Shown one piece after another: positions 1,365 to 60,960 of a DNA stretch of 64,000 nt. The first letter of the stretch is position 1. Every line of letters begins with the position of its first letter. The notes beneath the pieces are model-generated. The model was given only the letters and a program-made list of their open reading frames with translations, searched no databases and was not told where the DNA came from. Source of the DNA: Gemmatimonadaceae bacterium (lineage in GTDB: Bacteria; Gemmatimonadota; Gemmatimonadetes; Gemmatimonadales; Gemmatimonadaceae); the NCBI GenBank assembly GCA_036496605.1, contig DASXKV010000008.1:1-64000 (forward strand), given 5' to 3'. The translations under genes were made by a program, and so were the position numbers.

Positions 1365-2348
1365 ATGAAGCGTTCCTCCTTCATCACGTGGGATCAACTG
1401 CGCGTCGGTCTAGTCATCGTCGCCGCGCTCGGCATTCTCACCCTGGCCATCTACAAACTCGGTCAGGCAGCGAATCTGTTCGCGAAGCGGTACGACCTCA
1501 TCGCGTTCTTGAAGGAGGCGAACGGATTGCGCGTGGGCGGCACCGTGACGCTTGCCGGCCAGACGGTCGGCACTGTCAAAGCCGTCGATTTTCTGCCAGT
1601 TGACGCGGACACGTCGCGCAATCTCAAGATCACTGTCGCCATCGATCAGAGTCTCAAGGATCAGATCCGGCGCGATTCAAAAGCGCAGATCCGCACGATG
1701 GGTCTCCTCGGTGACAAAATTTTCGATATCACACCCGGAACTCCTCGCGCGGCCGTGCTGCAGGCCGGAGACACGATCGCGGTGGCACCCGCGCTCGATT
1801 ACGAGCAGGTGCTCGCGCAGGCTGCCGGCGCCGTGGGCGACGTCGTCGCGCTCACGAAGGACATGCGTCAGCTCACCGGCGGCATCGTTCGCGGCGAGGG
1901 CACGCTCGGGCAGCTCATCACGAATCGCCAGCTCTACGATCAGTTCACCAGCACGCTCGCGCGCACGAACACGATGATGGCGCGGTTGCAGAATCCGAAT
2001 GGAACGGTCGGCCGCCTGCTCGACGATCCCACGCTCTACACGAAGCTCACGGGCATGATCGCGTCGACCGATTCGCTGCTCCGCTCCGTGAACTCGGCCC
2101 AGGGCACGTTAGGCAGGATGATTCGCGACACGGTGCTCTATGGCAATCTTCTCAACATGAGCCGCGGCGCCGACTCGCTGATGCGCATGATCACCAACGG
2201 CAAAGGCACCGCCTCGAAGCTGCTCACCGACCAGACGCTGTACGACCAGTTGAACAAGCTCGTGACGGACCTCAACGCAGTGCTCGCCGACGTGCGGCGC
2301 GATCCGACGCGATATATGAAGGGCGCGATACAGGTAAGGTTGTTCTGA
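1365..2348 (+). CDS. mlaD: MlaD-like MCE-domain lipid-binding protein
   Basis: 327 residues. A single N-terminal membrane anchor lies at about 12-31 and an MCE domain at about 41-120 (YDLIAFLKEANGLRVGG, then GLLGDKIFDITPG). The C-terminal half holds about four repeats of roughly 37 residues with the pattern G-T-x-G-x-L-L-x-D-x-x-L-Y (GTLGQLITNRQLY, GTVGRLLDDPTLY, GTLGRMIRDTVLY, GTASKLLTDQTLY). Family knowledge: MCE proteins form hexameric rings that carry lipids across the periplasm, and helical tails extend the channel. The repeats suggest a longer tail than E. coli MlaD. It is the last gene of the mla operon. Confidence 0.92.
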   Translation: MKRSSFITWDQLRVGLVIVAALGILTLAIYKLGQAANLFAKRYDLIAFLKEANGLRVGGTVTLAGQTVGTVKAVDFLPVDADTSRNLKITVAIDQSLKDQIRRDSKAQIRTMGLLGDKIFDITPGTPRAAVLQAGDTIAVAPALDYEQVLAQAAGAVGDVVALTKDMRQLTGGIVRGEGTLGQLITNRQLYDQFTSTLARTNTMMARLQNPNGTVGRLLDDPTLYTKLTGMIASTDSLLRSVNSAQGTLGRMIRDTVLYGNLLNMSRGADSLMRMITNGKGTASKLLTDQTLYDQLNKLVTDLNAVLADVRRDPTRYMKGAIQVRLF

Positions 2349-2400
2349 CAATACCTCCTTCTCAGCCTTGTCAGCCTTGCCGCCTTGTCAGCCTCCGTGC

Positions 2401-2652
2401 GCGGCGAGAGCGGGACCGGGGTCGCTCCAGGGCGCTATGACGATACTGCCATTATTTCTGCGCCGTTAGGCATGATCGGTACGATGGCAGTATCGCCATA
2501 GCTGCCCCTCCGGACCCCGCTCGCGCTCTCGCCCCTGCCACCTGTCAGGGCAACCAGAGCATCCTGGCGCCGCGCTCCGACGCGCGCCCTAAGAGGAACC
2601 AATGGCAGTGTTATCATAGTGCCCCGGAGCGACCCCGCTGCTGCTATCGCGC
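2401..2652. repeat. Three copies of a 50-bp intergenic repeat, two forming an inverted pair
   Basis: The gap between mlaD and the asparaginase gene holds copy A on the - strand (2401-2452) and copies B (2484-2533) and C (2602-2652) on the + strand. All begin ATGGCAGT, continue with a CATAG block, then GGAGCGACCCC or a variant, and end in a GCTCTCGC-like run. A and B share an exact 11-base inverted match (GATACTGCCAT with ATGGCAGTATC) and could fold as one long stem. No open frame with gene character covers them. The stretch just upstream (2349-2400) contains short direct repeats of CTTGTCAGCC. Confidence 0.7.
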
Positions 2653-2747
2653 GCACCGAACGCCATGGCGCCGCGGAGCCGCGCCGCTCCTGCTATGGAG
2701 TTTCCTTTTCCACCAGCAACCAGTCACCAATAGCGAACTACCCTAAT

Positions 2748-2762
2748 TATCTTTCCCCCGTG
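2748..2762 (+). promoter_or_regulatory. Putative -10 box placing transcription start at a GTG (leaderless)
   Basis: TATCTT at 2748-2753 ends six bases before GTG 2760, which is in frame with the asparaginase-like gene. No Shine-Dalgarno sequence precedes GTG 2760 or ATG 2793. No clear -35 box is seen 17 bases upstream. The same arrangement recurs at hemW, recJ, arcA and the M20 gene. Confidence 0.4.
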
Positions 2763-3839: not shown

Positions 3840-5560
<1,721 letters not shown>

Positions 5561-8889: not shown

Positions 8890-9945
8890 ATGCCACCGCA
8901 AGAGCTGTCCAGACGCGAACGAAGGATCCTCGAGGCGGTCATCCTCAGTTATGTGGAGACCGCCGAGCCTGCCGGCTCGCGCACATTGTCGCGTCGGTTC
9001 GGGCTCGGCGTGTCGCCGGCGACGATTCGTAACACCATGTCGGATCTGGAGGAGAAGGGCTTCCTCTTCCATCCGCATACGTCCGCCGGCCGTGTTCCGA
9101 CGAACAAGGCCTACCGCGTGTACGTCGATCAACTGTTGGCGATGCCGTCGCTCCTCACGCAGGAGCCCGAGCGTCTGGCGGAGACGATCAGCGCCGGCGG
9201 CGCGCTTGGGGTTTCGGCGATCGAAGCGGTGCTTCGCCGCGCGGCGCAGACCCTCGGCGTTCTGACGCAGGAGCTTGGCGTTGCGCTGGGGCCTCGTCTC
9301 GCGACGTCGGTGTTGCGGCGTCTCGAGCTCGTCCGGATCAGCAATGAGCGTTTGCTCATGGTGCTGACGCTGGATGGCGGCGTCATGCGCACCGTGTTCG
9401 TCGAAGTCGCCGGCGAGATCGCCGAGACGGCAGTCGCCCAGGTGACGGCCGTGCTCAACGAGCGACTTGCAGGGTTGACCCTCGATCAGATCCGCCGATC
9501 GCTCGCGCTTCGGCTCCGCGACGTGTCCGCCGGGCCGGACGGGCACGAGCTGTTGAATATCTTCGTACAGGAAGCAGAACACCTTTTCGACGCGGCCGTG
9601 CCCACTGAGGCGGAGAGCGTGTTGCTGGGTCAGCCGTCCGTTCTCGCTGAACAGCCGGAGTTTTCGGCGGCGGATCGGTTGCGACGCCTGCTCGCGCTCA
9701 CCGAGCGACCGGACGCGTTGGCCGAAGCGATCCGCAAGCGCACCGCTCCGGGCGTCTCGATCACGATCGGGACGGAGCACGACGACCCGCGGCTCGATGA
9801 ATTCACCGTCGTCACCGCCGAATACAATGTCGGTAGCCTAACGGGCGTGATCGGCGTCATCGGGCCAACGCGCATGCCGTACGAAAAGGTCATCTCTCTC
9901 GTCAGCCACACATCGCGGCTGCTCAACGATCTACTTCAACAATAG
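8890..9945 (+). CDS. hrcA: Heat-inducible transcription repressor HrcA
   Basis: 351 residues from ATG 8890. The N-terminal winged helix reads LSRRERRILEAVILSYVETA, then RFGLGVSPATIRNTMSDLEE and HTSAGRVPTNKAYRVYVD, diagnostic of HrcA. A GAF-like middle domain follows. HrcA represses heat-shock genes by binding CIRCE operators. It is directly followed by dnaJ, supporting the role. I looked for a CIRCE dyad (TTAGCACTC-N9-GAGTGCTAA) before hrcA and dnaJ and saw none, so its targets, probably groESL or dnaK, are elsewhere. Confidence 0.96.
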   Translation: MPPQELSRRERRILEAVILSYVETAEPAGSRTLSRRFGLGVSPATIRNTMSDLEEKGFLFHPHTSAGRVPTNKAYRVYVDQLLAMPSLLTQEPERLAETISAGGALGVSAIEAVLRRAAQTLGVLTQELGVALGPRLATSVLRRLELVRISNERLLMVLTLDGGVMRTVFVEVAGEIAETAVAQVTAVLNERLAGLTLDQIRRSLALRLRDVSAGPDGHELLNIFVQEAEHLFDAAVPTEAESVLLGQPSVLAEQPEFSAADRLRRLLALTERPDALAEAIRKRTAPGVSITIGTEHDDPRLDEFTVVTAEYNVGSLTGVIGVIGPTRMPYEKVISLVSHTSRLLNDLLQQ

Positions 9946-9963: not shown

Positions 9964-11097
9964 ATGGCTGACTTCTATTCGACACTCGGCGTGCCACGAG
10001 GCGCGGCCGACGACGATATCAAAAAGGCGTATCGCAAGCTCGCGATGCAGTATCACCCCGATAAGAACAACGGGGCGAAGGACGCCGAGGAAAAGTTCAA
10101 GGAGATCACCGAAGCGTACGACGTGCTCCGCGATCCGCAGAAGCGCGCCGCGTACGATCGCTACGGCGAGGCCGGGCTTCGTGGCGGCGGTGGCTTCCAT
10201 CACGTCGATCTCTCCGAGGCGCTCGGCATTTTCATGCGCGACTTCGGCGCGTTCGCCGGCCTCGACGAGATGTTTGGACTCGGCGGACGATCCGGCGGGA
10301 GCGTTCGCTCCGGTGCGGACGTGAAGGTGACGCTTTCGCTCACGCTGGCCGAGGTCGCGACGGGAGTTGAGAAAAGGATAAACGCAAAGCTGCTCGAGCC
10401 GTGCGACAAGTGTGGCGGCAGCGGCGCGGAGCCGGGATCGAAGCCGCAGACGTGCGCGACGTGCAATGGGAGCGGCGAGGTGCGCCGAGCACAGCGCTCG
10501 TTCTTCGGGCAATTCGTGACCGTCGCGCCATGTCCGACGTGCCACGGCGAAGGGACGATGGTCCACACACCGTGCAAGCAGTGTCGAGGTGAAGGACGGA
10601 TCCGCGCCGAGCGCGAGATCTCGATCGACGTGCCGCCGGGCGTCGCGACGGGACAGTACATGACGCTGCGCGGCGTTGGCAACGCGGGTCAGCGCGGCGG
10701 TCCGCGTGGCGACATTCACGTCATCTTCGAGGTGGCCGACGATCCACGCTTCGAGCGCGATGGCGAGGAGCTGTACACCGAAGTGCTCGTGACGTACGCG
10801 CAGCTCGTCCTCGGTGCGGACCTCGTCGTGCCGACGGTGACCGCGAGCTCGACGCTGAAGGTTCCGCCAGGTACGCAGAGCGGGCAGGTCTTTCACGTGC
10901 GGGGACGCGGCCTGCCGCGCGTCAACGCGAGTGGCACCGGCGATCTGCACGTGCGCGTGCAGCTCTGGACGCCGGATCGCCTGACGGATGAGGAGCGTAT
11001 ACTCATCGAGCAGCTGAACGAGGTTCAGAAGAGCGTCCCACTCGATTCGCGCGGCAAGGGCTTCTGGGCAAAGATGAAGGAAGCGTTAGGCGCGTGA
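9964..11097 (+). CDS. dnaJ: Chaperone DnaJ
   Basis: 377 residues. The J domain has HPD at 31-33 ([11 protein letters not shown]). A short Gly/Phe region follows (GGGGFHHVD). The zinc-binding region has all four CxxCxGxG repeats: [24 protein letters not shown] and [10 protein letters not shown]-terminal substrate-binding domain and dimer region complete a type I DnaJ. It stimulates DnaK ATPase and delivers unfolded clients. The gene lies 18 bases after hrcA and overlaps prmA by GTGA. Its end includes a CGTTAGGC octamer that supplies a TTA codon. Confidence 0.97.
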
Positions 11098-14741: not shown

Positions 14742-17141
14742 GTGAACTCACACGCCCTACGCGTCATCGAGTTTCATCGCGTGTTGGAGCTCGTTGCCGG
14801 CCGTGCGACATCGGAGCTTGGTGCGGGGCTCGTCCGACGACTCGAGCCGCATACGGATCGTGCGCAACTCGACGGCGAGCACGCCCGCGTTGCCGCCGTG
14901 CGTTCGATCATATCGGGCGAGCAGCCGTGGCATCCCGAGCCACTCCCCGATCTCCTCGCCTCGCTGTCGCGTCTGCGCGTCGAAGGCGTCGTCTGGAATG
15001 GACCCGAGCTGCTTGCCGGGGCGCAACTGCTGCGCTCTTCTCGTCGAACGCGCGAGTCGCTGAGCGACGAACGACGGCCCGCGCTCGCGCGCGCCGTGCT
15101 CGCGCCGCTTACCGACCGCCTGATCGGCGTCAAACAGCTCGAGGACGCGATCGACAAAACATTCGAAGACGACGGCTCGGTGCGCGACGACGCCTCGCCG
15201 GCGCTGCGCCGCGTTCGGCGCGAGTTGCGCGCGGCGGAAGGCGACCTCGTTAGGCTGCTCGAACGTGTCATCGAGCGTCTCGATGCGCATCACCGCGTCT
15301 CCGACATGTCGGTGACCGTGCGCGACGGTCGCTATGTGATTCCCGTGCGACGCGAAGGCCGCGGGACCGTCGGCGGGATCGTTCATGGCGCGTCGGCCAC
15401 GGGCGCGACGCTCTTCGTCGAGCCGCCGGCCGCTGTCGAATTCGGCAACCGCATTCGCGAGCTCGAGGCCGAAGAGCGCGAAGAGGTCGATCGCATTCTT
15501 CGCGAGCTCACCGATGCGCTGCGTCCCCATCGAGACGCGTTGATCGGCGCGACCGAAGCGCTGGCAGCACTCGACGCGCTTTTCGCGCGGGCGCGATTCG
15601 CGCTCGAGTTCCGTTGTATGGGCACGGTGCTTGTCGGAGCGAGCGACGGCTTCGTCGTGCGCGACGGCCGTCATCCATTGCTGCTCGCGCAGGGAATCGC
15701 TGTCGTTCCATTCGATCTCGAGATGAGCGCGACCGAGCGCACATTGCTCGTGTCCGGTCCCAACACCGGCGGCAAAACCGTGCTCCTCAAGGCGCTCGCG
15801 CTGATCTCGGCGATGGCGCAATCCGGAATTCCCGCGCCGGCGGCCGCCGAGAGTCGCATTGCCGTGTACGACGACTTCTTCGCCGATATCGGCGACGAGC
15901 AATCGATCGAGGCGAGTCTTTCGACCTTCAGCGCGCACGTGAAGAACCTCTCCGAGATCATGCGTTCGGCGTCGCCAAGCTCCCTCGTCCTCATCGACGA
16001 ACTCGGCTCCGGCACGGATCCGGTCGAAGGTTCGGCGCTCGGCTGGGCAGTACTGGAGGGCCTCACGCGTCGCGCCACGATGACGATTGCCACGACGCAC
16101 CTCGGCGCACTGAAGGAGCTGGCGACCGAAGTCGACGGAGTCGTGAACGCGTCGCTGCAGTTCGACGCCGACGCGCTCGCGCCGACCTATCGGCTGATCA
16201 AGGGAATTCCGGGGCGATCCTACGGCATCTCGATCGCGCGACGTCTGGAATTACCCGAAGACGTCGTGGCGCGCGCGGAGGAACGTCTTCCGCAACAGGA
16301 GCGTGACGTGGCGGCGCTCATCGAACAGCTCGAGCAGCGTGGGGAAGCGCTCACCCTGCGCGAGCAGGAAACCGCGGCGATTCTCGACGATGCCCGCGAG
16401 CGAATGGCCGATCTCGCGCGGCGTGAACGGAACGTGCGCGAACGGGAGCGGCGTGCCGAGCGTGAGTCACGTCAGGAAGCTCGACGCTATCTGCTCGATG
16501 CGAGGCAGGAGATCGAGCGCACGCTCAAGGAGCTCCGGCGCGTCGAGAGCGAAGCGCTCGACGAGGCAGCACGCGAGGCGCGACAACGCGCGGAGCAGCT
16601 CGCGGCTCGTCAGGCGGCCGAGTTGGCGCGGCTGGATCGGGAAGAAGCGAACGTGACACGAAGCGACAGCGCGCGAACGACGCCTGCACGCGGGGCAACG
16701 CGCGAGATTGCGACCGGGACCTGGGTCGACGTCGCGACTCTTGGCGGCAAACCCGCCCGCGTCGTCGAGCTTCGCGACGGCAGCGCTGTCGTTGCGGTCG
16801 GGGCGATCAAGATGACGGTGCCGCTGGGGTCACTGACGCCGAGCGAATCGCCGCCGGTGGACGTCGCCACGTCGTGGACCGCCGATGTGCCGGATGTGAT
16901 TGCGCCCACAGAAATAGACGTCCGCGGGATGCGCGTCGACGAGGCCGAAGGAGTAGTCATGCAGGCGCTCGATGCCGCGGTGCGTGCCGATCTGCGTTCA
17001 CTGCGTATCATTCATGGGAAGGGGACGGGCGCGCTGCGCGAGCGCGTCGCCGAAATGCTCACCAAAGACACCCGCGTGAAGCAATTCCGACTGGGCGCCT
17101 GGAACGAAGGGGGCGCCGGCGTCACGGTTGCCGAGCTCTGA
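14742..17141 (+). CDS. mutS2: Endonuclease MutS2
   Basis: 799 residues from GTG 14742 (MNSHALRVIEFHRVLELVAG). The MutS-type ATPase has Walker A GPNTGGKT, the IGDEQSIEASLSTFSAH region and Walker B LVLIDELGSGTDP. A long coiled coil rich in R, E and A follows (about 520-650), then a C-terminal Smr nuclease domain (IDVRGMRVDEAEG, then LRIIHGKGTGALR). It acts in anti-recombination or, in some bacteria, on stalled ribosomes. It lacks the mismatch-binding domain of MutS. The stop overlaps the dnaG start by one base. Confidence 0.96.
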   Translation: MNSHALRVIEFHRVLELVAGRATSELGAGLVRRLEPHTDRAQLDGEHARVAAVRSIISGEQPWHPEPLPDLLASLSRLRVEGVVWNGPELLAGAQLLRSSRRTRESLSDERRPALARAVLAPLTDRLIGVKQLEDAIDKTFEDDGSVRDDASPALRRVRRELRAAEGDLVRLLERVIERLDAHHRVSDMSVTVRDGRYVIPVRREGRGTVGGIVHGASATGATLFVEPPAAVEFGNRIRELEAEEREEVDRILRELTDALRPHRDALIGATEALAALDALFARARFALEFRCMGTVLVGASDGFVVRDGRHPLLLAQGIAVVPFDLEMSATERTLLVSGPNTGGKTVLLKALALISAMAQSGIPAPAAAESRIAVYDDFFADIGDEQSIEASLSTFSAHVKNLSEIMRSASPSSLVLIDELGSGTDPVEGSALGWAVLEGLTRRATMTIATTHLGALKELATEVDGVVNASLQFDADALAPTYRLIKGIPGRSYGISIARRLELPEDVVARAEERLPQQERDVAALIEQLEQRGEALTLREQETAAILDDARERMADLARRERNVRERERRAERESRQEARRYLLDARQEIERTLKELRRVESEALDEAAREARQRAEQLAARQAAELARLDREEANVTRSDSARTTPARGATREIATGTWVDVATLGGKPARVVELRDGSAVVAVGAIKMTVPLGSLTPSESPPVDVATSWTADVPDVIAPTEIDVRGMRVDEAEGVVMQALDAAVRADLRSLRIIHGKGTGALRERVAEMLTKDTRVKQFRLGAWNEGGAGVTVAEL

Positions 17142-26142: not shown

Positions 26143-26952
26143 ATGGCGCCTCGACTACCACCGGTCCGGAAAAGCCTCGGTCAGCATTTTCTCAACGATC
26201 GACGAATCCTTGGCCGCATTGCGGATGCACTCGAGCTCCGGGGGTCGGAGCTGGTCATCGAGATCGGGCCGGGGCGTGGGGCGCTGACGGAGATATTGCT
26301 CGAGAGGGCGGGACACATCGTCGCGATCGAGTACGACCGGGCGCTGGCGGCATTGCTTCGCGAGCGGTATTCAGGCGACTCGCGCGTCACGATCGTGGAG
26401 CACGACGTGCTCGACCTGAACTTCGGCGAACTGGCGAAGGGCCCGTACGTCCTCGTCGGCAATGTGCCGTACTACATCACGACGCCGATTCTATTTCGGA
26501 GCCTGACGCGGCCGCGGCCCGAACGCGCCGTCTATCTCGTGCAGCGAGAAGTCGCCGAGCGGATCGTTTCGCCGCCGGGCAATCGCGAGTACGGTGCGTT
26601 GTCTGTGAACGTACAGGCGGTGGCGAAGGCCGAGTTGCTCTTTCACGTGAGCCGCGGCGCATTCCATCCTCCTCCGCGAGTTGACAGCGCGGTGCTTCGC
26701 CTAACGCCGCGCGTCGATCCGGTGATCTCCGCGTCGGAGGAACAGGAGTTCCGATCATTCGTCCAAGCCGCCTTTGGCATGCGACGCAAGCAGATGCGCC
26801 GCGTACTGCGCGAGCTCTGGAATCTCGACGCGGCTAACGCCGAGCGGATACTCGCTGCGGCGCAAATAGATCCTGCTGTCAGGCCGGAGACTCTTTCGCC
26901 GGTTGAATTCGCGAGGTTGCTCGGAGACGAGTCAGCGAGCAGGCCACAATGA
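26143..26952 (+). CDS. rsmA: 16S rRNA dimethyladenosine transferase RsmA (KsgA)
   Basis: 269 residues. The start gives MAPRLPPVRKSLGQHFLNDR, then motif I VIEIGPGRGALTEILLERA, YDRALAALLRE, and the catalytic motif VGNVPYYITTPILF (NxPY). It dimethylates A1518 and A1519 near the 3' end of 16S rRNA. The last codons (CCA CAA TGA) lie within the left arm of a 270-bp palindromic repeat element, so the stop codon is shared with that element. Confidence 0.96.
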   Translation: MAPRLPPVRKSLGQHFLNDRRILGRIADALELRGSELVIEIGPGRGALTEILLERAGHIVAIEYDRALAALLRERYSGDSRVTIVEHDVLDLNFGELAKGPYVLVGNVPYYITTPILFRSLTRPRPERAVYLVQREVAERIVSPPGNREYGALSVNVQAVAKAELLFHVSRGAFHPPPRVDSAVLRLTPRVDPVISASEEQEFRSFVQAAFGMRRKQMRRVLRELWNLDAANAERILAAAQIDPAVRPETLSPVEFARLLGDESASRPQ

Positions 26953-44603: not shown

Positions 44604-45475
44604 TCCGCGTCGGCGTCGTTGGGCACCGGGGCTACGCGGGATTGCCTGACGTCCTCCAGACACTGGAGGAGCTCTCGCCCGGACTCGGGCTCGAGCTCTA
44701 CTTCGAAGCAGAGATTCACGAAGCAGCGGGTTACGGCAAGGAGCTCGGTGATCCATCGCAGCTCGACGTCATGCTCACGTTAGGCGGCGACGGCACGCTC
44801 CTGCGCGGCGCGCGTCTCCTCGATCCACACCAGGTTCCGATCCTCGGCGTCAACCTCGGGCGGCTTGGATTTCTTACGTGCTGTCCAGCCGATCAGCTGG
44901 CGTCGGCGCTGATGCGCTTCGCGCGGAAGGACTATCTCGTCGAGTCGCGCATGGCGATCCGAGCGCGTGTGCTCGACGCCTTTGGACGCGAGCGGCACAA
45001 CTGGGTGGCGCTCAACGACGTCGTGCTCCACAAGGGAGGCTTCGCGCGCGTCGTGGAGCTCCGCGTCTGCGCCGACGGCGAGACGATGGCGACCTACGGC
45101 GCCGACGGCGTCGTGATATCGACGCCAACGGGGTCGACGGCGTACAGTCTCTCGGCTGGCGGACCGATCGTATTTCCGACACTGGAGGCACTCGTCGTCA
45201 CGCCCGTCTCGGCGCACGCGCTCGCGATCCGACCTTTGATCCTCCCGCCAGGCACCGAAGTGACGGTGCAAGCAGAAGGTTTCCCCGAGGAATTATTGGT
45301 CACGATCGACGGGCAGGTCGGTTCCACATTCTCCAGCGGCGAAACGCTCAGCATCCGACGAAACGAGTGCGGGCTCCTCATCGTGCGCTTCCCGGGTGGC
45401 AGCTTCTTCAAAACGCTCCGGCAAAAGCTCGGTTGGGGGGGTCTGAAAGAGCGGGACGAGAACTTCGGCAGCTGA
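44600..45475 (+). CDS. nadK: NAD kinase
   Basis: 291 residues from GTG 44600, overlapping the dxs stop. Diagnostic motifs are TLGGDGTLLRGARLL, VNLGRLGFLT, LNDVVLHKGG, YGADGVVISTPTGSTAYSLS and AGGPIVFP. It phosphorylates NAD to NADP. An octamer CGTTAGGC encodes part of the catalytic TLGG segment with a TTA codon. recN begins 5 bases after the stop, a common pairing. Confidence 0.96.
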   Translation: MIRVGVVGHRGYAGLPDVLQTLEELSPGLGLELYFEAEIHEAAGYGKELGDPSQLDVMLTLGGDGTLLRGARLLDPHQVPILGVNLGRLGFLTCCPADQLASALMRFARKDYLVESRMAIRARVLDAFGRERHNWVALNDVVLHKGGFARVVELRVCADGETMATYGADGVVISTPTGSTAYSLSAGGPIVFPTLEALVVTPVSAHALAIRPLILPPGTEVTVQAEGFPEELLVTIDGQVGSTFSSGETLSIRRNECGLLIVRFPGGSFFKTLRQKLGWGGLKERDENFGS

Positions 45476-45480: not shown

Positions 45481-47217
45481 ATGCTCACCGAGCTGCGAAT
45501 CAAGAACTTCGCAATCATCGAATCGCTCTCGCTGCCGCTCGAGCGCGGATTCAATGTGCTCTCCGGCGAGACCGGCGCGGGGAAATCGATCATCGTTGGC
45601 GCCCTCGGCCTTCTTCTCGGCGAGCGCGCGAGCTCGGATCTCATTCGCACGGGCGCCGACCGCGCCACCGTCGAAGGCGTCTTCGACATCGCCGAGCGAA
45701 AGGAGATCGCGTCGCTCCTCGACGAACATGGCGTCGACGCCGACGAGCCACTCGTCGTTCTCAAACGCGAGATTGCCTCATCCGGACGGACGCGCGCGTG
45801 GGTGAATGGAAGCGCCGTGAGCGCGACGCTGCTCGCGGAGATCGGCAGACATCTCGTGAATCTGCACGGTCAGCATGAAGCGCAGACGCTGCTCGACGCC
45901 GAGTCACAGCGAAGGATTCTCGACGTCTTCGCGGGTGCGACCGATGTCGCTGCGCAGACACAATTGGCATATGAGGCGCTCGCGAGCGCACGCCGCGACA
46001 TCGCCGATCTGCAACGTCGAAAGGCGGAGGCAGAACGGCGCGCCGACTATCTGCGTCACGTCGCGAAGGAAATCGAGGAAGCGAAGCTCGTCGACGGCGA
46101 GGACAGCCGGCTCGAGGACGAAGCACGACGGCTCGAGAACGCCGAGGAGTTGCGCACGCTCGCATCGGGGATCGCATCGGCGATCGACGGCGACGATGAA
46201 GCCGTGCTCACCATCCTCGGCGGCATCGAGCGGCACCTTTCGGCGATCCAGCGCATCGATCCGACCTTGTCGCGGCTCCAGGAACTATACGACGCCGCGT
46301 ACTACAATCTCGAGGCGCTCGCACGCGAGCTCGAAGAGTACGAGGCCTCCGTCGATCTCGATCCGGCTCGGCTCGATGAAGTCAGAGCGCGGCGCGACTT
46401 GCTCTTTCGCCTAACGAAGAAGTACGGCGCAACGCTCGCCGACGTCATCGAGACCGGCCGTCGCACGCGCGAAGAGCTCGATCTCGTCGACTCCGCGGGA
46501 CTGGACCTGCGCCAGCTCGACGCGCGGGAACGAGAAGCCAAATCGCGGCTCGAGGAACGTGCGTCGGCGCTCACCGAGCTGCGCCGGGCGGCCGCAAAGC
46601 GCCTGGCAGCGAGCGTCGATCAGATATTGCCAGACCTGGGGATGCCGGATGGGCATTTCAGTGCTCTGCTGAGGCAGAACGCTGACATTGGCTCATATGG
46701 AGCAGAGGACATCGAGTTTCGCGTTTCACTCAACGTGGGGCACGAGGAGCGACCGTTGTCGCGCGTTGCGTCGGGCGGCGAGCTGTCTCGGGTAATGCTT
46801 GCGCTGAAGACGATTCTCGCCCGGCTCGACCGCGTACCGACGCTCGTCTTCGACGAAGTTGACGCCGGCATCGGTGGTCGTGTCGGGCTCATGGTCGGAG
46901 AGACGATGCGTGGCGTGGCGGCGCACCATCAGGTGTTCGCGATTACTCATCTCCCGCAGATCGCGGCGCGGGCGCATCAGCACATTCTCGTGTCCAAAGG
47001 CGCCCGCGGCGGCGTGACGACGGCCGACGTCACCGTGCTCACCGGACCGGATCGAATTTCCGAGGTCGCGCGCATGCTCGGCGGCGATCCCGAGAGCGAA
47101 GTGAGTCGCGCGCACGCGCGCGAGCTGCTCGATAGCGCGGCGGCGCCGGAGCTCGCGGGAGCCGGCGCGGCGACGAGCGACGCCAGGCCTCAGCGTCCGC
47201 GGCGCGGCAAGCGATAG
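45481..47217 (+). CDS. recN: DNA repair protein RecN
   Basis: 578 residues. The SMC-like ATPase has Walker A LSGETGAGKSIIVGAL, LHGQHEAQTLLD, a long central coiled coil, the signature RVASGGELSRVMLALKTILA and Walker B TLVFDEVDAGIGG, then ITHLPQIAARA. RecN holds DNA ends during double-strand break repair. It ends the long + strand run. Its last 28 bases overlap the convergent barrel-protein gene. Confidence 0.96.
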   Translation: MLTELRIKNFAIIESLSLPLERGFNVLSGETGAGKSIIVGALGLLLGERASSDLIRTGADRATVEGVFDIAERKEIASLLDEHGVDADEPLVVLKREIASSGRTRAWVNGSAVSATLLAEIGRHLVNLHGQHEAQTLLDAESQRRILDVFAGATDVAAQTQLAYEALASARRDIADLQRRKAEAERRADYLRHVAKEIEEAKLVDGEDSRLEDEARRLENAEELRTLASGIASAIDGDDEAVLTILGGIERHLSAIQRIDPTLSRLQELYDAAYYNLEALARELEEYEASVDLDPARLDEVRARRDLLFRLTKKYGATLADVIETGRRTREELDLVDSAGLDLRQLDAREREAKSRLEERASALTELRRAAAKRLAASVDQILPDLGMPDGHFSALLRQNADIGSYGAEDIEFRVSLNVGHEERPLSRVASGGELSRVMLALKTILARLDRVPTLVFDEVDAGIGGRVGLMVGETMRGVAAHHQVFAITHLPQIAARAHQHILVSKGARGGVTTADVTVLTGPDRISEVARMLGGDPESEVSRAHARELLDSAAAPELAGAGAATSDARPQRPRRGKR

Positions 47218-48863
47218 TAAATTCGAAACTCGATCTGATCGCGGTGATACTGCGGCGTCAGACCGCCTGTCGCCGTGATCGTCTGGAGATGCGTGTAGAA
47301 TATCTCGAGCGGCACGACGCTGACGCTGCGTGCATAACGAGCGACGGTCGAGTAGCCGAAGCCAAATCCGATCCGTTGCTCCGTCGACGCGGCAAAGAGC
47401 GGAGGCTCCGTGACGTCGGGCGACGTGTACTTGCTTGGCGCCTGATGCCGGAACGTGTAGGCGCCGTGAATCGTGAAGTAGTCGGTGAGGAGCAAGCGAG
47501 GCATCGCTTCGGCTTGTATTGCATTTCCCTCGCGCCACGTCCCGGCGACTGGCACGTCCATCGGGAATAGATCGTAGTCGCTATTGGGTAGCCTGGGGAC
47601 GGCCGAGCTCGTGAAGAACGCGGTGTACTGGGCGGCGAGCGTCGCCATGAGTCGGCGGCCGAGCCCGAGGTCGACGATGGCGCCGCCGTTGGCACTCGTC
47701 TGGCCAGTGCCGATTCCTACCTCGTAGGGCACGGTGCCGCTCGGTGTCTCGAGCGATGAGCCGATGCTCAACACACCCCGCAACGTCGCGCGGAGACGAA
47801 CTCCCGTGGAATCGCGAAATCCGTCGACCAGTTTGTAGAGCGCCGAGATTTCCACGTCGCCGATGCCGATACGCGTGGGGGATCCGAGCGAGTCGTAGGC
47901 GGCGCCCGAGGTGGCCGTCACGAGCTGCTGCAGCTGAAGATTCGCCGCCGGTGCGTTGGCGCCCGCGGGCTTGTCGAAGGCAACGCTGCCGCCTAACAAC
48001 GTGCTGATCGTCGTAGCGAGCGCCGCGAGCTGCGCTTCCACTTGCTGCTGAGCCGTACCGAATGGCGCGAAGGCGCTCGTTTGCGGGCTCGTGCCATAGA
48101 GAGCCTGAATTGCCGCCTTGTAGGAAACTGTCTTCGCGAGCGCGGCGTTCGCCGTCGCAAGGTCGGCCGCCGAACAACTTCCGGATTGCGAACAGTTGTC
48201 GAGGTAACTGCTCAACGCCGAATTCTGGGCGCCGAGCTCCAAGATCAGTTGATTGTTCGCGGTTTGAGCATCAGCATTGCCCAACTGCGCCGGATTGGGC
48301 CCGACGTTCGCACCCGTAGTCCCGTTCAGACGCCGCGGATTCAGCTCGACAAATACGTCCGTCTTGGTTTGTACGATCGGCACCATCACGCCGATCGTTA
48401 GGCGATCACTCACGCCGTACGCGAGCGAGAAGGGCGTCGTCACGTATCGCGCGGCAACGTTCGCGAACGTCTGGCCGAGATTGAGCGAGATGTTCGGGTC
48501 GCCCGTGAGCGTGCGAAGCGCCGACTGGGCGGCCGCCAATCCCGGGAACTGGCGCACGCCGAGCGAGTCGAAGCTGAACGAGTTGCCGAGGGGATGCAGA
48601 TGATGTGCGCTGTCCGCGGCGGCGTCGTAAACCTGATCGAGCCGCGTCCAGACATTCATGGCGCGCAGGACGAACGCGCCTTTGGGGAGCGTCCGAGCGT
48701 CCTCGGTATTGCTCAGCGGTACCGGATATGGCGGGAGCTGCGCCCTGGCCGGACCCGATGCGCAGACGAGAGCGACGACGATCAGCAGCGACGCACGCCG
48801 GAGGAACTGCCATCGTCTGCGTGCGTCGCCAATCCGGTGCGGTTCGGTCGCGGCCTCGTGCAT
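47190..48863 (-). CDS. Exported beta-barrel outer-membrane protein, function unknown
   Basis: 557 residues. An N-terminal signal peptide is visible (LRRASLLIVVALVCASGPARA, cut before QLPPYP). The body is rich in amphipathic strands, for example FSLAYGVSDRLTIGVMVPIV and RLMATLAAQYTAFF, and it ends IEFRIYYRLPRRGR. A helical, Ala- and Gln-rich insertion spans about 210-310, with one possible disulfide (CSQSGSC). This fits transporter-like or channel-like barrels that report themselves as hypothetical. It converges on recN with a 28-base overlap. I do not recognise a named family. Confidence 0.65.
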   Translation of the reverse strand: MHEAATEPHRIGDARRRWQFLRRASLLIVVALVCASGPARAQLPPYPVPLSNTEDARTLPKGAFVLRAMNVWTRLDQVYDAAADSAHHLHPLGNSFSFDSLGVRQFPGLAAAQSALRTLTGDPNISLNLGQTFANVAARYVTTPFSLAYGVSDRLTIGVMVPIVQTKTDVFVELNPRRLNGTTGANVGPNPAQLGNADAQTANNQLILELGAQNSALSSYLDNCSQSGSCSAADLATANAALAKTVSYKAAIQALYGTSPQTSAFAPFGTAQQQVEAQLAALATTISTLLGGSVAFDKPAGANAPAANLQLQQLVTATSGAAYDSLGSPTRIGIGDVEISALYKLVDGFRDSTGVRLRATLRGVLSIGSSLETPSGTVPYEVGIGTGQTSANGGAIVDLGLGRRLMATLAAQYTAFFTSSAVPRLPNSDYDLFPMDVPVAGTWREGNAIQAEAMPRLLLTDYFTIHGAYTFRHQAPSKYTSPDVTEPPLFAASTEQRIGFGFGYSTVARYARSVSVVPLEIFYTHLQTITATGGLTPQYHRDQIEFRIYYRLPRRGR

Positions 48864-54350: not shown

Positions 54351-55490
54351 ATGGAGCTGAAGAAGGTTCTCGAGACTCTCAGAGCGAATGCGGCGCAGTA
54401 CGTACGTGCCTTTGCTGAGATTCTGACTTCTCCGCGTCTGTACTTCGTGCCCGAGACGCGAGAGTCAAACTCGGGAGCGGAGCCGCAGGTCGTCGGTGCC
54501 GAGGGTCCGAACCAGAAAGAAAAGACGCTGTCGAATGCGAACCTGCTGGTGTTTGGCGCGATCAGCGTGTTTCTGGGATCCGCCGTTTGGCAGTATTTGC
54601 TGGGGAGAGAAGATTCGCTCCCGCTGGCAGGGCGCGTTGCGATCGTTTTGGTGCTCTGGTGCCTGATCGGTGCGGGCGCACATGTCGTTTGTCGAATCGT
54701 AGGTGGCAAAGGCTCGGCGATTGATACTTTAGCCGGAACGATTCAGACGCTCGCCGTGACGTACGTGATAGGGACGCTGCTGACGCTCCTCCTGGTCGGG
54801 AAGACGCTCGGCGCTAGGCCACAGCTGCTCTATGCGGCGATTCAGTGTGCTCTACTGCTTGCGCTCCTGCCTCCAATCCTGGGCCGCATTCATCGCCTAA
54901 CGCGGTCTCGCGCCGCAGGGCTCCTGGTAGTGCCACTTTTTGCAAGCGCCTTGAGTTTCCTGGTATGGAATGGTAGGCTGGGAGCACCGCGAGCAACTTC
55001 GCCAGAGCTGGCCTCTGCGAGGTCGCCGGTGATGAGCCTCGCTGGCTCGCCCGAGCCAGGCCCGAGCGCTGGAGGCGATATCCTTCCAGCGCGAGGAACG
55101 GTGCCGCAACTTGGGCAAGTTTTCATTCGATACTTCCAGCCTCAAAGCGCGCAGCCTCCGCATGTGTCGTTTGTCGAAAACAAGGCCGATAGCACTCAGG
55201 TGTTCTGGTTTCCCTTGCGAGAATGCGAATCTGAGCGGAAGTGTCCTTACAGGCCCTGGTGGCGCAAAGCGGATGTGAACGTAATTGTGGTTCCAGACGA
55301 CGTCGTTGTAGGGATCATGGAGCTTCACAACACCTGCTACGGGCTTCTCAGGGTCAATCCGGACTCGGACTATTCGATGGCGTGCCAGGGGCAACGGCTG
55401 AGAGTAGTCACAGCTCCAACTACGTGGCGAAGCACGGGGCAGCCACCGAGAACGGAATGGCTCGCGGCACGCTGGCCGTTGAACCCGTAA
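54351..55490 (+). CDS. Multi-pass membrane protein with a C-terminal soluble domain, unknown
   Basis: 379 residues. Four or five membrane helices lie between about 60 and 210 (LLVFGAISVFLGSAVW, VAIVLVLWCLIGAGAHVV, TLAVTYVIGTLLTLLLV, LLALLPPILG, AGLLVVPLFASALSFLVW). The N-terminal half resembles Yip1-like domains. The C-terminal 150 residues are soluble, with four cysteines (ECESERKC, CYG, CQG). Codon choice is less GC-rich than in neighbours, which hints at transfer. It converges on the DUF2911 gene. Function not recognised. Confidence 0.6.
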   Translation: MELKKVLETLRANAAQYVRAFAEILTSPRLYFVPETRESNSGAEPQVVGAEGPNQKEKTLSNANLLVFGAISVFLGSAVWQYLLGREDSLPLAGRVAIVLVLWCLIGAGAHVVCRIVGGKGSAIDTLAGTIQTLAVTYVIGTLLTLLLVGKTLGARPQLLYAAIQCALLLALLPPILGRIHRLTRSRAAGLLVVPLFASALSFLVWNGRLGAPRATSPELASARSPVMSLAGSPEPGPSAGGDILPARGTVPQLGQVFIRYFQPQSAQPPHVSFVENKADSTQVFWFPLRECESERKCPYRPWWRKADVNVIVVPDDVVVGIMELHNTCYGLLRVNPDSDYSMACQGQRLRVVTAPTTWRSTGQPPRTEWLAARWPLNP

Positions 55491-56815: not shown

Positions 56816-57946
56816 CTAGCGCAGCGCGGCGAAGAGCTCCTGCTGTCCGCGGAGTATGCGTGCCGACTCGTTAGGATTCGGCTCGAGGCTCCATTCGCCG
56901 CGCTCGTGCGTGCCGCCAAGGATGATCCCATCCTGACGCGGCATCATATAGAGATCGCCCGGGCCGATGGTGATGTAGTCCACCTCCGGCTGCGGTGCGA
57001 GCACCGTGAGCTGCCCCTTGATCGGCAAGATGTCGGGATCGTTGAACAACTTGCCCGCGGCGAGACCGGTGCAATTGACGATCACCGGCTCGCTCAATGC
57101 GACGATCGATCGTGCGTCGGCGAATTCCCGAAGTATGACATGGCCGCCGGCGATCCGAAAATCCTGCAGCACGGCCGCGAGGTAGGTCGACGGCTCGATA
57201 TGCATCGTGAGAAATCGCGACGTGTGATATCCGGGGAAGGGGCTCTCGTGCGGTGTGAGCACGGTACGTGGAAGCAGCTCTCGCAGGAATGCGGCTTCCC
57301 ATGCGCCCGCGGCGCCGCTGGACGTCGCCGACGGCGACGAGATCGAATAGTTCTCGCGCCAGCCGATGCCGTACTTCGCGCCCACGAGATTCTGGTAATA
57401 CCGATATGCGAATCGCGAGGCGCGCACGAATTGCGTCTCGAACAACGGCGTTACGAGCTCGGAGTCGACGACGGTGACCGGCGACCACTGCGCTCCCGCG
57501 ATGTTCGACGTGGTGTTCGGCGGCAAGTCGCGCGCATAGATCGTTACGCTGAAGCCGCGATCCTGGAGCAAGCGAGCGGTCGCGAGGCCCACTGCGCCGC
57601 ATCCGATGACCGCTGCCTGGCGCAGCGTGGCTGCAAGCGCGAGCTCGGCGGCCATGTCCGCCGTACCCCACGACAGCGACACGCCGCCGCCGCCGTGGCC
57701 ATAATTGTGAATGAGCAGCTTCTCGTCGACTGAATCCGCTCGGACGAGAAACCCCGTCCGCCGGTAAGGCCGCAGCCCGACGACTTGCCGGATCACTCGA
57801 TCCTGCGATACACGAACCGGCGCCAAGCGTCGCCGTGTGGCGCGGCGCGACTCGCTCGCGCCGCGCAACGCCGTACAGCCGCCTAACGTCTGCGCCCCGC
57901 AGGCGAATGCGATCCACTTGAGCGCGGTGCGCCGTGATACCGTCAC
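56816..57946 (-). CDS. Tat-exported FAD-dependent amine/D-amino-acid oxidase-like protein
   Basis: 376 residues from GTG 57946. The N terminus SRRTALKWIAFACGAQTLGG followed by Cys suggests a Tat signal with a lipobox, so it may be a lipid-anchored periplasmic enzyme. The DAO fold shows a Rossmann motif AAVIGCGAVGLATARLLQDR, NIAGAQWSPV, VNCTGLAAGKLF, PIKGQLTVLAP and ILGGTHERGEW. This resembles D-amino-acid or D-aspartate oxidases. The GxGxxG is shifted well into the protein (about 115) because about 80 residues precede it. Confidence 0.8.
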   Translation of the reverse strand: MTVSRRTALKWIAFACGAQTLGGCTALRGASESRRATRRRLAPVRVSQDRVIRQVVGLRPYRRTGFLVRADSVDEKLLIHNYGHGGGGVSLSWGTADMAAELALAATLRQAAVIGCGAVGLATARLLQDRGFSVTIYARDLPPNTTSNIAGAQWSPVTVVDSELVTPLFETQFVRASRFAYRYYQNLVGAKYGIGWRENYSISSPSATSSGAAGAWEAAFLRELLPRTVLTPHESPFPGYHTSRFLTMHIEPSTYLAAVLQDFRIAGGHVILREFADARSIVALSEPVIVNCTGLAAGKLFNDPDILPIKGQLTVLAPQPEVDYITIGPGDLYMMPRQDGIILGGTHERGEWSLEPNPNESARILRGQQELFAALR

Positions 57947-58703: not shown

Positions 58704-59039
58704 CTACCTCACGCGCAAATCATCTCGCGTGATTTCGGGGATTGGGAGCGACTCACTGCTGACGGCAAATCGTTCCCGAGCGAGATCGGCAACGCGATCG
58801 CGCAGCTCGGGCGATGGCTTCTCGGCGCTGTAGAGATACGCGATGATCGATCGCGGGACGGCATCGTCGAAAATGCACCAGCGCGCGAGCCGCTGGCCGT
58901 CGATCGCGAGGCTGGAGCCGTTGCCATGTAGCGTCATCGCGCGTAGCCCGCGCTGACTGGTGTAGATCCAACACTCGGACATCACCCGGCGTGCTTCAGC
59001 GTAGTCCTGCGACGCGACGGCAATATTGGCAGGCTCCAT
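58704..59039 (-). CDS. Hypothetical protein
   Basis: 111 residues from ATG 59039. It starts MEPANIAVASQDYAEARRVM and contains IYTSQRGLRAMTLHGNGSSL and ARWCIFDDAVPRSIIAYLYS. A mixed alpha/beta protein is likely; no family is recognised. It is the only frame with normal codon use in this stretch. It lies between a barrel gene and the terminator of the rad52-like operon. Confidence 0.5.
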   Translation of the reverse strand: MEPANIAVASQDYAEARRVMSECWIYTSQRGLRAMTLHGNGSSLAIDGQRLARWCIFDDAVPRSIIAYLYSAEKPSPELRDRVADLARERFAVSSESLPIPEITRDDLRVR

Positions 59040-59130
59040 GTGCGCTCCGATGACACGGGAGGACGTAGGCGTCGTCCTCGTGTCCAAATATCGGACGCGC
59101 ACGGAGAATGTTGAGCGCGCTCTGAGCGGT

Positions 59131-59160
59131 AAAGGGCGGGAACTCGCTTCCCGCCCTTCA
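59131..59160 (-). terminator. Terminator after the rad52-like gene
   Basis: AAGGGCGGGAA (59132-59142) and TTCCCGCCCTT (59148-59158) form a perfect 11-bp stem with a 5-base loop, 8 bases after the stop codon of the leftward rad52-like gene. On the - strand it is followed by only a short T run. Confidence 0.65.
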
Positions 59161-59166
59161 CCAGAA

Positions 59167-59991
59167 TCAGAACGGAACCGTGTCCGTCTCGGTTTTCGTC
59201 GGCTCACTCTCCGACGCGAGCTGGAACTCGCTCTCGCTCGCTCCGGCATCCGCGCGTTGAGCTGCCTTGGCGGGCCAGATCACGCCGTCGCAGGAACGAT
59301 TGCGACACTTGTAATCCGGCGCCTTCGGATTGCGCTTCGAAAGACGGTTGTCCCACATGCGACCACCGCACTTCGGACAGCTCGGTTCGTCCAGCGCGAG
59401 CGGCCCCGTCGCCGGGCCGGGAAACGTTGTCTCTACGTGGACAGACTCGGTCGACGTCTCTTCGGTCTGCTCGGCGCGCCGGCGCTCGCGTGCCTCGAGG
59501 CGCGCCACGCGTCGCGCGTAAGCCGCCGCAGGGTCATCGAGCGGCTTTGCATAACGACCGTCGCCGTCGACCTGCACCCAGTTCTGCTCGAAGCCGTAGA
59601 GCTCGTGCGCGATGCCAAAGCGTACCGCGGCGCGCTTGAACGCATCCGTCGCCGCGGACTTGTAATCGCGTCCCGTTCCCACGTCCTCACGAATGACGCC
59701 GAGAATCTGCAGACGCGCCTTGAAGGAGCAGGTCTGCTCTCCGTTCTCATCCTGTCCGGCAAGAGTCGGTAACAGCTCGAGCGTGAGGTCCCACTCTCCG
59801 GGAACGACGCCGTCCAGCCGCTCGCGAACCGTGTTCGCGTCGATGTACGCGACAAACCGCGCGACGAATTTCCCATCGCGCAGGACCGGTTTGCCGTCCT
59901 GCCGCCAGGAGATCACGCCCGCGGGCAGGGGCGCGGAAAGCTTCGACCAGATGTCCATCTTTTCCATGTGTGTCTCGTGTCGAGCGATCAT
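59167..59991 (-). CDS. Rad52/Rad22-like single-strand annealing protein with zinc ribbon
   Basis: 274 residues from ATG 59991; ATG 59967 is an alternative. The Rad52-family core is VGTGRDYKSAATDAFKRAAV, then RFGIAHELYGFEQNWVQVD, preceded by LTLELLPTLAGQDENGEQTC. A linker (about 160-205) leads to a C-terminal four-Cys zinc ribbon: CPKCGGRMWDN and YKCRNRSCDGVIW. It resembles phage and DdrA-like bacterial annealing proteins, but a fused ribbon is unusual in those I know. It is coupled (ATGA) to a small Cys/His protein and controlled by an operator-rich promoter. Confidence 0.83.
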   Translation of the reverse strand: MIARHETHMEKMDIWSKLSAPLPAGVISWRQDGKPVLRDGKFVARFVAYIDANTVRERLDGVVPGEWDLTLELLPTLAGQDENGEQTCSFKARLQILGVIREDVGTGRDYKSAATDAFKRAAVRFGIAHELYGFEQNWVQVDGDGRYAKPLDDPAAAYARRVARLEARERRRAEQTEETSTESVHVETTFPGPATGPLALDEPSCPKCGGRMWDNRLSKRNPKAPDYKCRNRSCDGVIWPAKAAQRADAGASESEFQLASESEPTKTETDTVPF

Positions 59992-60383
59992 GCTCTCATC
60001 CCACCGTTGTTGGTTCGTCCACTGTGCTGCCTGTCAGCCATTCCAACCCGTTGCGCTTGTCCAACCGCCGGACATGCGACGCCGTGCTCGCAGTACCATC
60101 CGTGTCTTCGATCCAGAAAGACGAGGTGGGCTTTGGCCGCCCCGTCCGCCGTCTCATCGACGCGAAATAACCGCTCGACCGACGTACCCTGTCCGCACTT
60201 CTCCTGCGCGTTGAGCTCCTTCACCCGAAACTGCGCCGCCAGCTTCTTCGCCACGGCCGGCTTCGGTTTGGCGCGGCTGCGCCCGCGATCGCTCGGTCTG
60301 CTTCCTCCGCGAGCGCCGGTCTTGCGATCGGGCTTCCGCTTTTGACGCTTGTTGCTCTGCCCCGATTTGTTGACTCGCGACAC
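59988..60383 (-). CDS. Small basic Cys/His protein coupled to the rad52-like gene
   Basis: 131 residues from GTG 60383, chosen because AGGAG lies about 6 bases upstream; ATG 60398 is an alternative. The N-terminal 55 residues are very basic (NKRQKRKPDRKTGARGG). A compact region follows with EKCGQGTSVERLFRVDE, then HLVFLDRRHGWYCEHGVACP, offering Cys and His ligands for a metal. The stop overlaps the rad52-like start by ATGA, which supports both genes. No known family is recognised; a DNA-binding accessory role is inferred from charge and position. Confidence 0.65.
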   Translation of the reverse strand: MSRVNKSGQSNKRQKRKPDRKTGARGGSRPSDRGRSRAKPKPAVAKKLAAQFRVKELNAQEKCGQGTSVERLFRVDETADGAAKAHLVFLDRRHGWYCEHGVACPAVGQAQRVGMADRQHSGRTNNGGMRA

Positions 60384-60395
60384 CGCAACTCCTAT

Positions 60396-60469
60396 CATCT
60401 GTTACAGATGTAAGTATTGTTCGGGGTTCGTTCGGTATCATATTATAGAGGGCGTGTTACAAATGTCAA
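60396..60469. promoter_or_regulatory. Divergent promoters and paired operators of the rad52-like operon
   Basis: On the - strand TTGACA (60469-60464), a 16-base spacer and TATAAT (60447-60442) are perfect consensus boxes. On the + strand TTGTTC (60417-60422) and TATTAT (60441-60446) share the same -10 region. Box 1 is the perfect dyad CATCTGTTACAGATG (60396-60410); box 2, TGTTACAAATGT (60455-60466), lies between the - strand boxes and covers the regulator's start codon. Binding at both would repress both genes. Confidence 0.72.
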
Positions 60470-60960
60470 CCCGCCGAAAACGATCACAGGCAGACGCCCT
60501 CGGCTTCCCCGATCTGACGCCACTCGGAAAGCACATCGAAGTGCTTCGCATCGGACGAGGCCTTTCGAAACAGCGCCTCGCTCGCTTTGCCAGCACCTCA
60601 CGCCAGCAGATCTGGCGAGTGATGACGGGCAAGGCGGAGCTCACCGATTCGCTGCGGCAGCGGTTGGCCCACGCGCTTCAGGTGGCGACCTCCGAGTTAT
60701 CTCCGAACGCCAGCTCCCTCCCGAACGTTCGCGGCGCAACGACGCGAAACGCGCCGAGCATCGGTATCTCGCTCGAGACATATCTGGCGGCGCCAGCGCT
60801 CGCCGAGCGAACTCTGCGCACACTGCCTAACGGCGAAGCGGGACGCGAGCTCAAGCGGGCAATCCTCACCGCGCTCGAAGACCTCGCGATACAACATCAC
60901 ATCGCGCTGCCGGCGGAGTTTTTCGATCTCCGTCGTCGCGTCCTTACCGACGAGCTGTAA
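60463..60960 (+). CDS. XRE-type helix-turn-helix regulator
   Basis: 165 residues from ATG 60463. The N-terminal helix-turn-helix (about 23-80) reads LGKHIEVLRIGRGLSKQRLA, then RFASTSRQQIWRVMTGKAEL. The C-terminal 80 residues are mainly helical (SIGISLETYLAAPALAERTL) with no known ligand domain. It is divergent from the small Cys/His-rad52-like operon and its start codon lies in an operator copy, so it probably represses both directions. The absence of a LexA-type Ser-Lys protease pair means induction by RecA is not supported. Confidence 0.8.
   Translation: MSTRRKRSQADALGFPDLTPLGKHIEVLRIGRGLSKQRLARFASTSRQQIWRVMTGKAELTDSLRQRLAHALQVATSELSPNASSLPNVRGATTRNAPSIGISLETYLAAPALAERTLRTLPNGEAGRELKRAILTALEDLAIQHHIALPAEFFDLRRRVLTDEL

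Follow-up and report, generated by a model that had tools for sequence, protein, structure and literature searches.

The 64,000-nucleotide stretch considered here (hereafter the window; contig DASXKV010000008.1 of assembly GCA_036496605.1, from a Gemmatimonadaceae bacterium) carries the octamer CGTTAGGC far more often than expected. The explanation we favour, to which we give about an even chance, is that CGTTAGGC is a DNA uptake word comparable to the uptake sequences of Neisseriaceae (DUS, DNA uptake sequence) and Pasteurellaceae (USS, uptake signal sequence), and that biased uptake together with recombination maintains it. We favour it because the word is genome-wide, non-palindromic, present on both strands, conserved, visible in protein sequences, sparing of close pairs, and variable at its ends from genus to genus. 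In its fuller form, which we rate slightly below an even chance, the proposal is that such a system arose independently of Neisseriaceae and Pasteurellaceae with a receptor of its own, and that one octamer, with dialects, was inherited from an ancestor across the order and repeatedly lost.

Twenty-three exact copies lie in the window between positions 2107 and 60832, 11 on the forward and 12 on the reverse strand, the same figures as in a preliminary description of this DNA. The strong over-representation claimed there holds; its expectation of two or three copies is too generous, as 100 dinucleotide shuffles of the window gave a mean of 0.95 copies and a maximum of 4. The genome to which the window belongs (G000; 5.97 Mb, 70 contigs, 97% complete) contains 3411 copies, evenly divided between the strands (1661 + 1750), and the same word read backwards occurs 408 times (211 + 197). 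When octamers in an 807 kb sample of G000 were compared with the expectation of an order-2 Markov model, CGTTAGGC came first, with 428 copies against 11.8 (36-fold); scaled up, this expectation is about 87 copies for the genome, so that the 3411 observed are an excess of about forty-fold. A maximum-order Markov model yields 200 expected against 215 observed in the sample, an uninformative test here, since it is the motif that dominates its own sub-words.

The largest number of copies in any carrier, 4469, was found in Gemmatirosa kalamazoonensis (G018; Gemmatimonadales, Gemmatimonadaceae), whose 1.1 Mb replicon is identical to NZ_CP007129. The G018 sample includes about 20 kb (locus L027) that repeats itself and duplicates the start of the chromosome, which affects the G018 counts given below for flanking bases, synonymous shuffling, variants, spacing, neighbour orientation, tripeptides, TTA codons, attC and gene typicality; the main counts (chromosome and megaplasmid density, strand heterogeneity) were recomputed without it. 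So computed, the chromosome holds 237 copies in 420 kb (0.56 per kb) and two megaplasmids hold 157 in 240 kb (0.65 per kb). The even orientation reported earlier is borne out by the genome counts and by tests of strand heterogeneity in both samples (p = 0.79 in G000, 0.09 in G018). The base following the word is preferentially a purine, giving CGTTAGGCR (A and G at 0.28 and 0.47 in G000, at 0.34 and 0.47 in G018), and T is preferred before it in G000; no flanking signal common to G000 and G018 was seen beyond the following purine, and a G+C enrichment with codon period around the G018 copies is read as coding background. No other word at a comparable level was seen in 67 kb of the non-carrier G016. 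A second family of over-represented words in the G000 sample, around TAGGGGCTAG/CCCTAGCCCC, is probably an interspersed repeat, and the over-represented words of the AGTTGAGAGT type in the sample of G007 (L036 to L040) are probably a local repeat. At about 8117-8165 of L168 (NZ_CP007130) the word plus four bases forms a 12-base tandem repeat.

Codon usage does not account for this abundance. In the G000 sample the gene caller placed 349 copies in genes, 62 outside and 17 at gene edges, the outside class being inflated by missed genes; the coding copies are 182 sense and 167 antisense and use all four stop-free frames. Shuffling of synonymous codons within genes left 14.1 +/- 3.8 coding copies in place of the 349, a 25-fold difference, and 9.8 in place of 245 in G018. 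Codon-pair or dipeptide bias, named in the preliminary description as a possible full explanation, is rejected by this result, and, together with plain chance, it retains almost none of our credence. The word does fit Leu-Gly, Leu-Thr, Pro-Asn and Val-Arg contexts, and tripeptides of the form PN[ADEGV] are over-represented in word-free genomes as well (1.63x expectation, from 29 counts); against this stand the excess over shuffling in four frames, an excess of conservation, and the near-absence of the word from most genera of the family.

The conservation was seen in a comparison with G001, a genome of the same genus (PheT 75% identical, aligned DNA 79% identical). Over 90 kb, with 6 of the 35 copies left out because they could not be aligned, 15 of 29 aligned G000 copies are intact in G001, compared with 85 of 559 words at two mismatches (15%; p = 1e-5), 15 of 73 at one mismatch, and 30 of 224 control words containing TTA or TAA (p = 8e-6). 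In the reverse direction, 15 of 30 G001 copies are intact in G000.

The copies in the window, all CGTTAGGC, are as follows, with the residues encoded and their state in other genomes or loci where compared.

2107 to 2114, forward: T-L-G in an MlaD-domain gene (1365-2348).
2464 to 2471, forward: intergenic, between called genes ending at 2348 and starting at 2619.
4069 to 4076, reverse: R-L-T (CTA ACG) in a called gene (3840-4481).
5038 to 5045, reverse: Q-P-N (CCT AAC) in a called gene (4541-5560).
9836 to 9843, reverse: S-L-T in a called gene (8890-9945); CGTCAGGC in G001.
11084 to 11091, forward: A-L-G-A-stop at the end of dnaJ (EALGA*; TIGR02349); intact in G001.
15248 to 15255, forward: V-R (GTT AGG) in mutS2; intact in G001 and L048.
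17686 to 17693, forward: V-R (GTT AGG) in the dnaG open reading frame (ORF; 16874-18943); intact in G001 and L048.
21114 to 21121, forward: T-L-G in recJ; CGTTAGGT in G001, intact in L048.
25245 to 25252, forward: P-L-G in a GAF/SpoIIE-domain gene; intact in G001 and G183.
26699 to 26706, reverse: R-L-T in a called gene (26143-26952); absent in G001.
32829 to 32836, forward: A-L-G in the pheS ORF (32651-33733); absent in G001.
33972 to 33979, reverse: A-P-N-V (CCT AAC) in pheT; the same codons carry the word in 7 genomes of 5 genera; absent in G001.
34026 to 34033, reverse: M-P-N in pheT; intact in G001.
34808 to 34815, forward: S-L-G in pheT; also in G001, G002 and G137.
43235 to 43242, reverse: A-P-N-V in dxs; intact in G001 and G018.
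44024 to 44031, reverse: V-P-N in dxs; intact in G001.
44778 to 44785, forward: within T-L-G-G-D-G-T (site 44777) of a nadK-like gene, which we take to be NAD kinase from its GGDGT motif alone; intact in G001 and G183.
46409 to 46416, reverse: R-L-T in the recN ORF; intact in G022, CGTGAGGC in G001.
48396 to 48403, forward: R-L-T in a called gene on the reverse strand (47190-48863); intact in G001.
54895 to 54902, reverse: R-L-T in a called gene (54351-55490).
57881 to 57888, reverse: T-L-G-G near the start of a called ORF (56816-57946), FAD oxidoreductase-like, under curated cut-offs.
60825 to 60832, reverse: L-P-N in a called gene (60349-60960); intact in G001.

Thus 22 of the 23 copies fall within a called gene or an ORF with a family match, among them dnaJ, mutS2, dnaG, recJ, pheS, pheT (three copies), dxs (two), recN and NAD kinase, with others of no firm family. 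The earlier statement that most copies are in conserved genes is correct as to genes, although several of the called genes have no family match. The gene caller alone placed 19 of these copies in genes: three of the four it put between genes lie in dnaG, pheS and the nadK-like gene, which it missed, and because it misses genes the intergenic density in the 807 kb sample is unreliable. The codons said to be forced, TTA or AGG, occur at 10 of the 22 genic copies (8 TTA, 2 AGG); the other 12 are CTA-ACG (6) and CCT-AAC (6). Both examples named in the preliminary description, TLGGDGT at 44777 and the EALGA* that ends dnaJ, are present.

The word has also left its mark on proteins. In G000 it writes 17% of [APST]LG and 38% of PN[ADEGV] tripeptides, and it contains 120 of 418 TTA codons there and 137 of 194 in G018. 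Compared with independence of the residues, [APST]LG is in excess in G000 (1.27x) and G018 (1.31x), and stands at 1.00x in a word-free sample of 33,376 codons (G016, L047 and eight pheT loci). Once the motif-coded tripeptides are removed the excess vanishes (1.04x and 1.01x), and the word therefore seems to have been created partly through amino-acid changes. A motif-coded excess of [RGSC]LT was found in G000 only, and VR[LPHQR] showed none. Within pheT, PLGF (CCG TTA GGC) occurs in G022 and G137 where others have S/A/G/T-I/V/L-G, and the A-P-N-V site is written CCT AAC in 7 of the 11 carriers that have A-P-N (five genera) and in none of 8 non-carriers (p = 0.013, kinship ignored).

Spacing was compared with a null in which each copy was redrawn among near-motif words within 5 kb. 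Neighbours in G000 are too few below 300 bp (35 versus 66 in the null), too many at 600-1000 bp (91 versus 61), and again too few at 2-3 kb (38 versus 56); in G018 the excess falls at 1-1.5 kb (77 versus 57). Another explanation, which we consider improbable, is that the word is bound by a nucleoid or chromosome-organisation protein requiring a site roughly every kilobase on all replicons. The avoidance of close pairs and the lack of strand bias agree with it, as does the similar density on the Gemmatirosa chromosome, megaplasmids and a satellite element (0.56, 0.65 and 0.80 per kb); near-complete absence from close relatives, even inside one genus, would be odd for a structural site, and we know of no architecture site with this word's form. 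As a property of an uptake word, the spacing in G000 recalls that of USS, whose copies lie about 1 kb apart on average and can accumulate through biased uptake alone (according to the part of PMC7811141 consulted), and the match between DUS spacing and the size of recombining fragments described in the corresponding part of PMC2397512.

Neighbouring copies in the samples are randomly oriented and no strand bias was found; in 21 samples of the G018 chromosome, 120 copies are leading and 117 lagging if the record is assumed to start at the origin and the terminus to lie half-way. Strand-polar signals are rejected on these grounds, in agreement with the preliminary description, which had argued from even orientation against Chi and the FtsK-orienting polar sequences (KOPS). 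Chi words are themselves over-represented, non-palindromic octamers. The available part of PMC1939737 lists the Chi of E. coli as an over-represented octamer. To a Chi-like recombination site, read by RecBCD, AddAB or another end-processing nuclease, we assign a very small probability. The content of RecC and of AddAB-like pairs (here defined by two large PF12705-containing frames on a single contig, rather than by a family call) does differ, with one or the other in 2 of 15 carriers and 9 of 18 non-carriers (Fisher p = 0.03, kinship ignored), but the association runs the wrong way. In the genomes screened for both, RecC turned up in 2 of the 15 carriers and AddAB-like pairs in none of them, compared with 5 and 4 of 18 non-carriers; weak nuclease matches occur in five carriers, two of them the RecC holders. 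Because 13 of the 15 carriers have neither RecC nor an AddAB-like pair, the word is not the RecBCD or AddAB Chi of those carriers, and for them that identity is rejected. RecC is scattered in the family (7 of 38 genomes, with AddAB-like pairs in 4 of 33), and it was also not found in G029, G041, G043, G262 and G285.

Enrichment in other Gemmatimonadota, which the preliminary description had put forward as a check, is found in part of the family and of its order. Within the family, 26 of 179 genomes, in 11 of 35 genera, have 223 to 4469 copies and the other 153 have at most 70. Across 395 genomes of the phylum, counts above 150 beyond the family occur only in the same order, in six g47 genomes (181-779), G285 (361), G262 (172) and G041 (168); no sampled genome outside the order has more than 67. 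The one carrier outside the family that was read, G055, has 13 copies in 53 kb, dispersed and in both orientations, and similar dispersal is assumed for the others; some of the smaller counts in the order stem from cassette-like runs. Of 80 loci matched with dnaG, four are attributed to this phylum; L046 and L048 carry the word, and L047 and L049 are without it. On a PheT tree of 26 genomes, in which deep nodes are weak, the trait needs 7 changes, at least 4 of them forced by well-supported branches. Shuffled labels need a mean of 8.7, and 79 of 500 shuffles are as low as observed, so the trait is hardly clustered on this tree. Inside one genus, with full support, G136 (3 copies) stands beside G022 (3754) and G137 (3099). 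G017 (26) groups with G018 (4469) and G032 (2415). The presence of the same word in distant genera would favour one old origin followed by repeated loss, and leaves room for the alternative of several gains through a transferred gene.

One-base variants are enriched as well, mostly at the two ends: CGTTAGGT 13.9x in G000, TGTTAGGC 30x in G018, CGTTAGGG 16.6x in G183 (on 7 copies), and any first base in G022. The internal variants enriched are CGTTATGC (6.4x in G000) and CGTTGGGC (3.2x in G018, 5.3x in G022). In whole-genome counts the ratio of DGTTAGGC to the form beginning with C ranges from 0.50 to 0.68 among five genomes of g21, from 0.07 to 0.11 among three of g1 and from 0.03 to 0.06 in two of g49; it is more variable in g26 and g29 (0.06-0.18) and in g47 (0.12-0.32). 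This genus-specific tolerance of end bases looks like drift in recognition by a protein, rather than decay at random positions.

Methylation might also maintain such a word. Standard single-molecule real-time (SMRT) sequencing sees 5-methylcytosine (m5C) poorly. The SMRT methylome of Gemmatirosa kalamazoonensis, the carrier with most copies, contains the N6-methyladenine (m6A) motifs RGATCY, ATGCAC and CCAGN7TCA (PMC3974934), none of which matches the word, and m6A methylation at CGTTAGGC is rejected for this carrier. Of the two causes offered in the preliminary description, a methylation motif is contradicted there in its m6A form, and uptake bias agrees with the spacing, conservation, proteome imprint and dialects. 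An m5C mechanism is a different matter: a solitary m5C methyltransferase with methylation-dependent mismatch repair could make and keep the octamer by biased substitution, as in the case of the highly iterated palindrome (HIP1) of cyanobacteria, which, in the part of PMC4390886 consulted, appears as a genome-wide octamer, patchy between relatives, with one-base deviations mostly at its first and last bases. We regard m5C methylation and repair as the strongest rival because HIP1 shares this patchiness and this end-base pattern, the deviations here being likewise mostly terminal with CGTTATGC and CGTTGGGC as internal exceptions. We still think it unlikely: HIP1 is palindromic and tied to methyltransferases, whereas CGTTAGGC is non-palindromic and matches no published Gemmatirosa m6A motif; repulsion of copies at short range would be unexpected from local repair; and amino-acid changes appear to have been accepted.

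The R box of an integron attC site is GTTRRRY, of which GTTAGGC, seven bases of the word, is one form. If copies marked cassette borders, runs in one orientation would be a natural sign, and runs mostly of this kind were seen, among the copies listed, in G036, G256, G271 and G348; the integron integrase family exceeds its cut-off in 23 of 32 genomes. A partner box (RCCTAAC on the same strand, no more than 140 bases upstream) accompanies only 8 of 428 copies in G000 and 13 of 411 in G018, however, and the copies are dispersed in both orientations, randomly oriented to their neighbours and situated inside genes, housekeeping genes included; the integrases are found in genomes with and without the word. 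As an account of most copies attC is rejected, and we consider cassette borders a scarcely credible explanation of the word. The runs themselves, on G036 C43, C80 and C95, G256 C2, G271 C5 and G348 C14, have their listed copies about 0.3-2.5 kb apart, as would be expected of cassette arrays with the word in the attC box.

For the uptake word that we favour, the following mechanism can be suggested. CGTTAGGCR would be the recognition word of a DNA-binding protein belonging to the type IV pilus/ComEC route of DNA uptake, and its presence on both strands of chromosome and megaplasmids would reflect strong, ongoing selection or drive. Word-bearing fragments from relatives would be taken up preferentially and recombine into the chromosome, molecular drive would make copies pile up and serve as a mark of 'own' DNA, and lineages without the word would have lost it after their receptor was lost or altered. 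The uptake machinery is widespread, with ComEC in 29 of 32 genomes and PilT in 71 of 71. Density also rises with how typical a gene is of G000, from 0.28 copies per kb in the least typical fifth to 0.62 in the most typical.

Several observations weigh against an uptake word. ComEC and PilT are equally common in genomes without it and do not separate the carriers, and ComP_DUS (PF16732) exceeds its cut-off in just one genome of 40, which lacks the word; none of the three tracks the carriers, and each is rejected as the gene behind the trait. Repulsion is weaker in G018, with 33 versus 55 neighbours at 50-300 bp, no deficit below 50 bp and a few tandem copies there, and the typicality gradient is weak in that genome (0.40 versus 0.49 per kb). 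Close inverted pairs are not abundant, unlike those of Neisseria terminators (6 pairs of any orientation within 100 bp in G000). Housekeeping genes (prmC-like, S41 protease, DAHP synthase) lie in the largest gap between copies in the sample, 13.8 kb long, and an account of motif-free gaps as genomic islands is rejected, as the ten gap proteins examined do not fit. In Gemmatirosa an integrase/primase satellite of 15 kb has the word at 0.80 per kb, and mobile DNA is therefore not always free of it. Tolerance at the two end bases is also a trait of HIP1, as far as the consulted part of PMC4390886 goes. Our literature search found no paper on competence or uptake sequences together with Gemmatimonas or the phylum, none of the papers listed for the octamer itself was on this topic by title, and the parts of PMC3497702 and PMC1939737 consulted name no such word in this phylum. 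The 21 kb element L027 (G018 C1) reads as a 14,997-base unit with repeated ends, its matched parts 100% identical to chromosomal DNA (L028, the chromosome start); its phage-type integrase and primase-like gene suggest a satellite or integrative element that has been excised.

In the parts of the literature consulted, uptake sequences are named only for Neisseriaceae and Pasteurellaceae, and CGTTAGGC, if an uptake word, would be a third, unrelated case. The many carriers that stand beside non-carriers would then allow molecular drive to be compared with selected safe sex, and the word could help in the genetic transformation of a soil phylum that is poorly cultivated. The search for the gene has built-in contrasts, G022 with G136 in one genus and G018 with G017 in neighbouring genera. 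Integron cassettes, whose attC box can have the same seven bases, might even possess a ready-made uptake passport. If uptake is not the cause, some unexplained force is strong enough to mark proteins throughout the genome.

DUS of Neisseriaceae come in dialects, USS of Pasteurellaceae changes the proteome, and a ComP-type DUS receptor is a feature of the former family and not of the latter. CGTTAGGC resembles DUS as a short, non-palindromic word on both strands that is conserved above its surroundings, DUS being so conserved in the core genome (PMC2397512, in the part consulted), and in its spacing, which for DUS is linked to fragment size. It differs from DUS in that no ComP_DUS receptor was found for it, in its few close inverted pairs, and in belonging to an unrelated phylum and being an unrelated word. 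From USS it differs in having no flanking tracts, just one extra purine common to two genera; it is like USS in a spacing of about 1 kb and in copies that, for USS, accumulate by molecular drive (PMC7811141, likewise in part).

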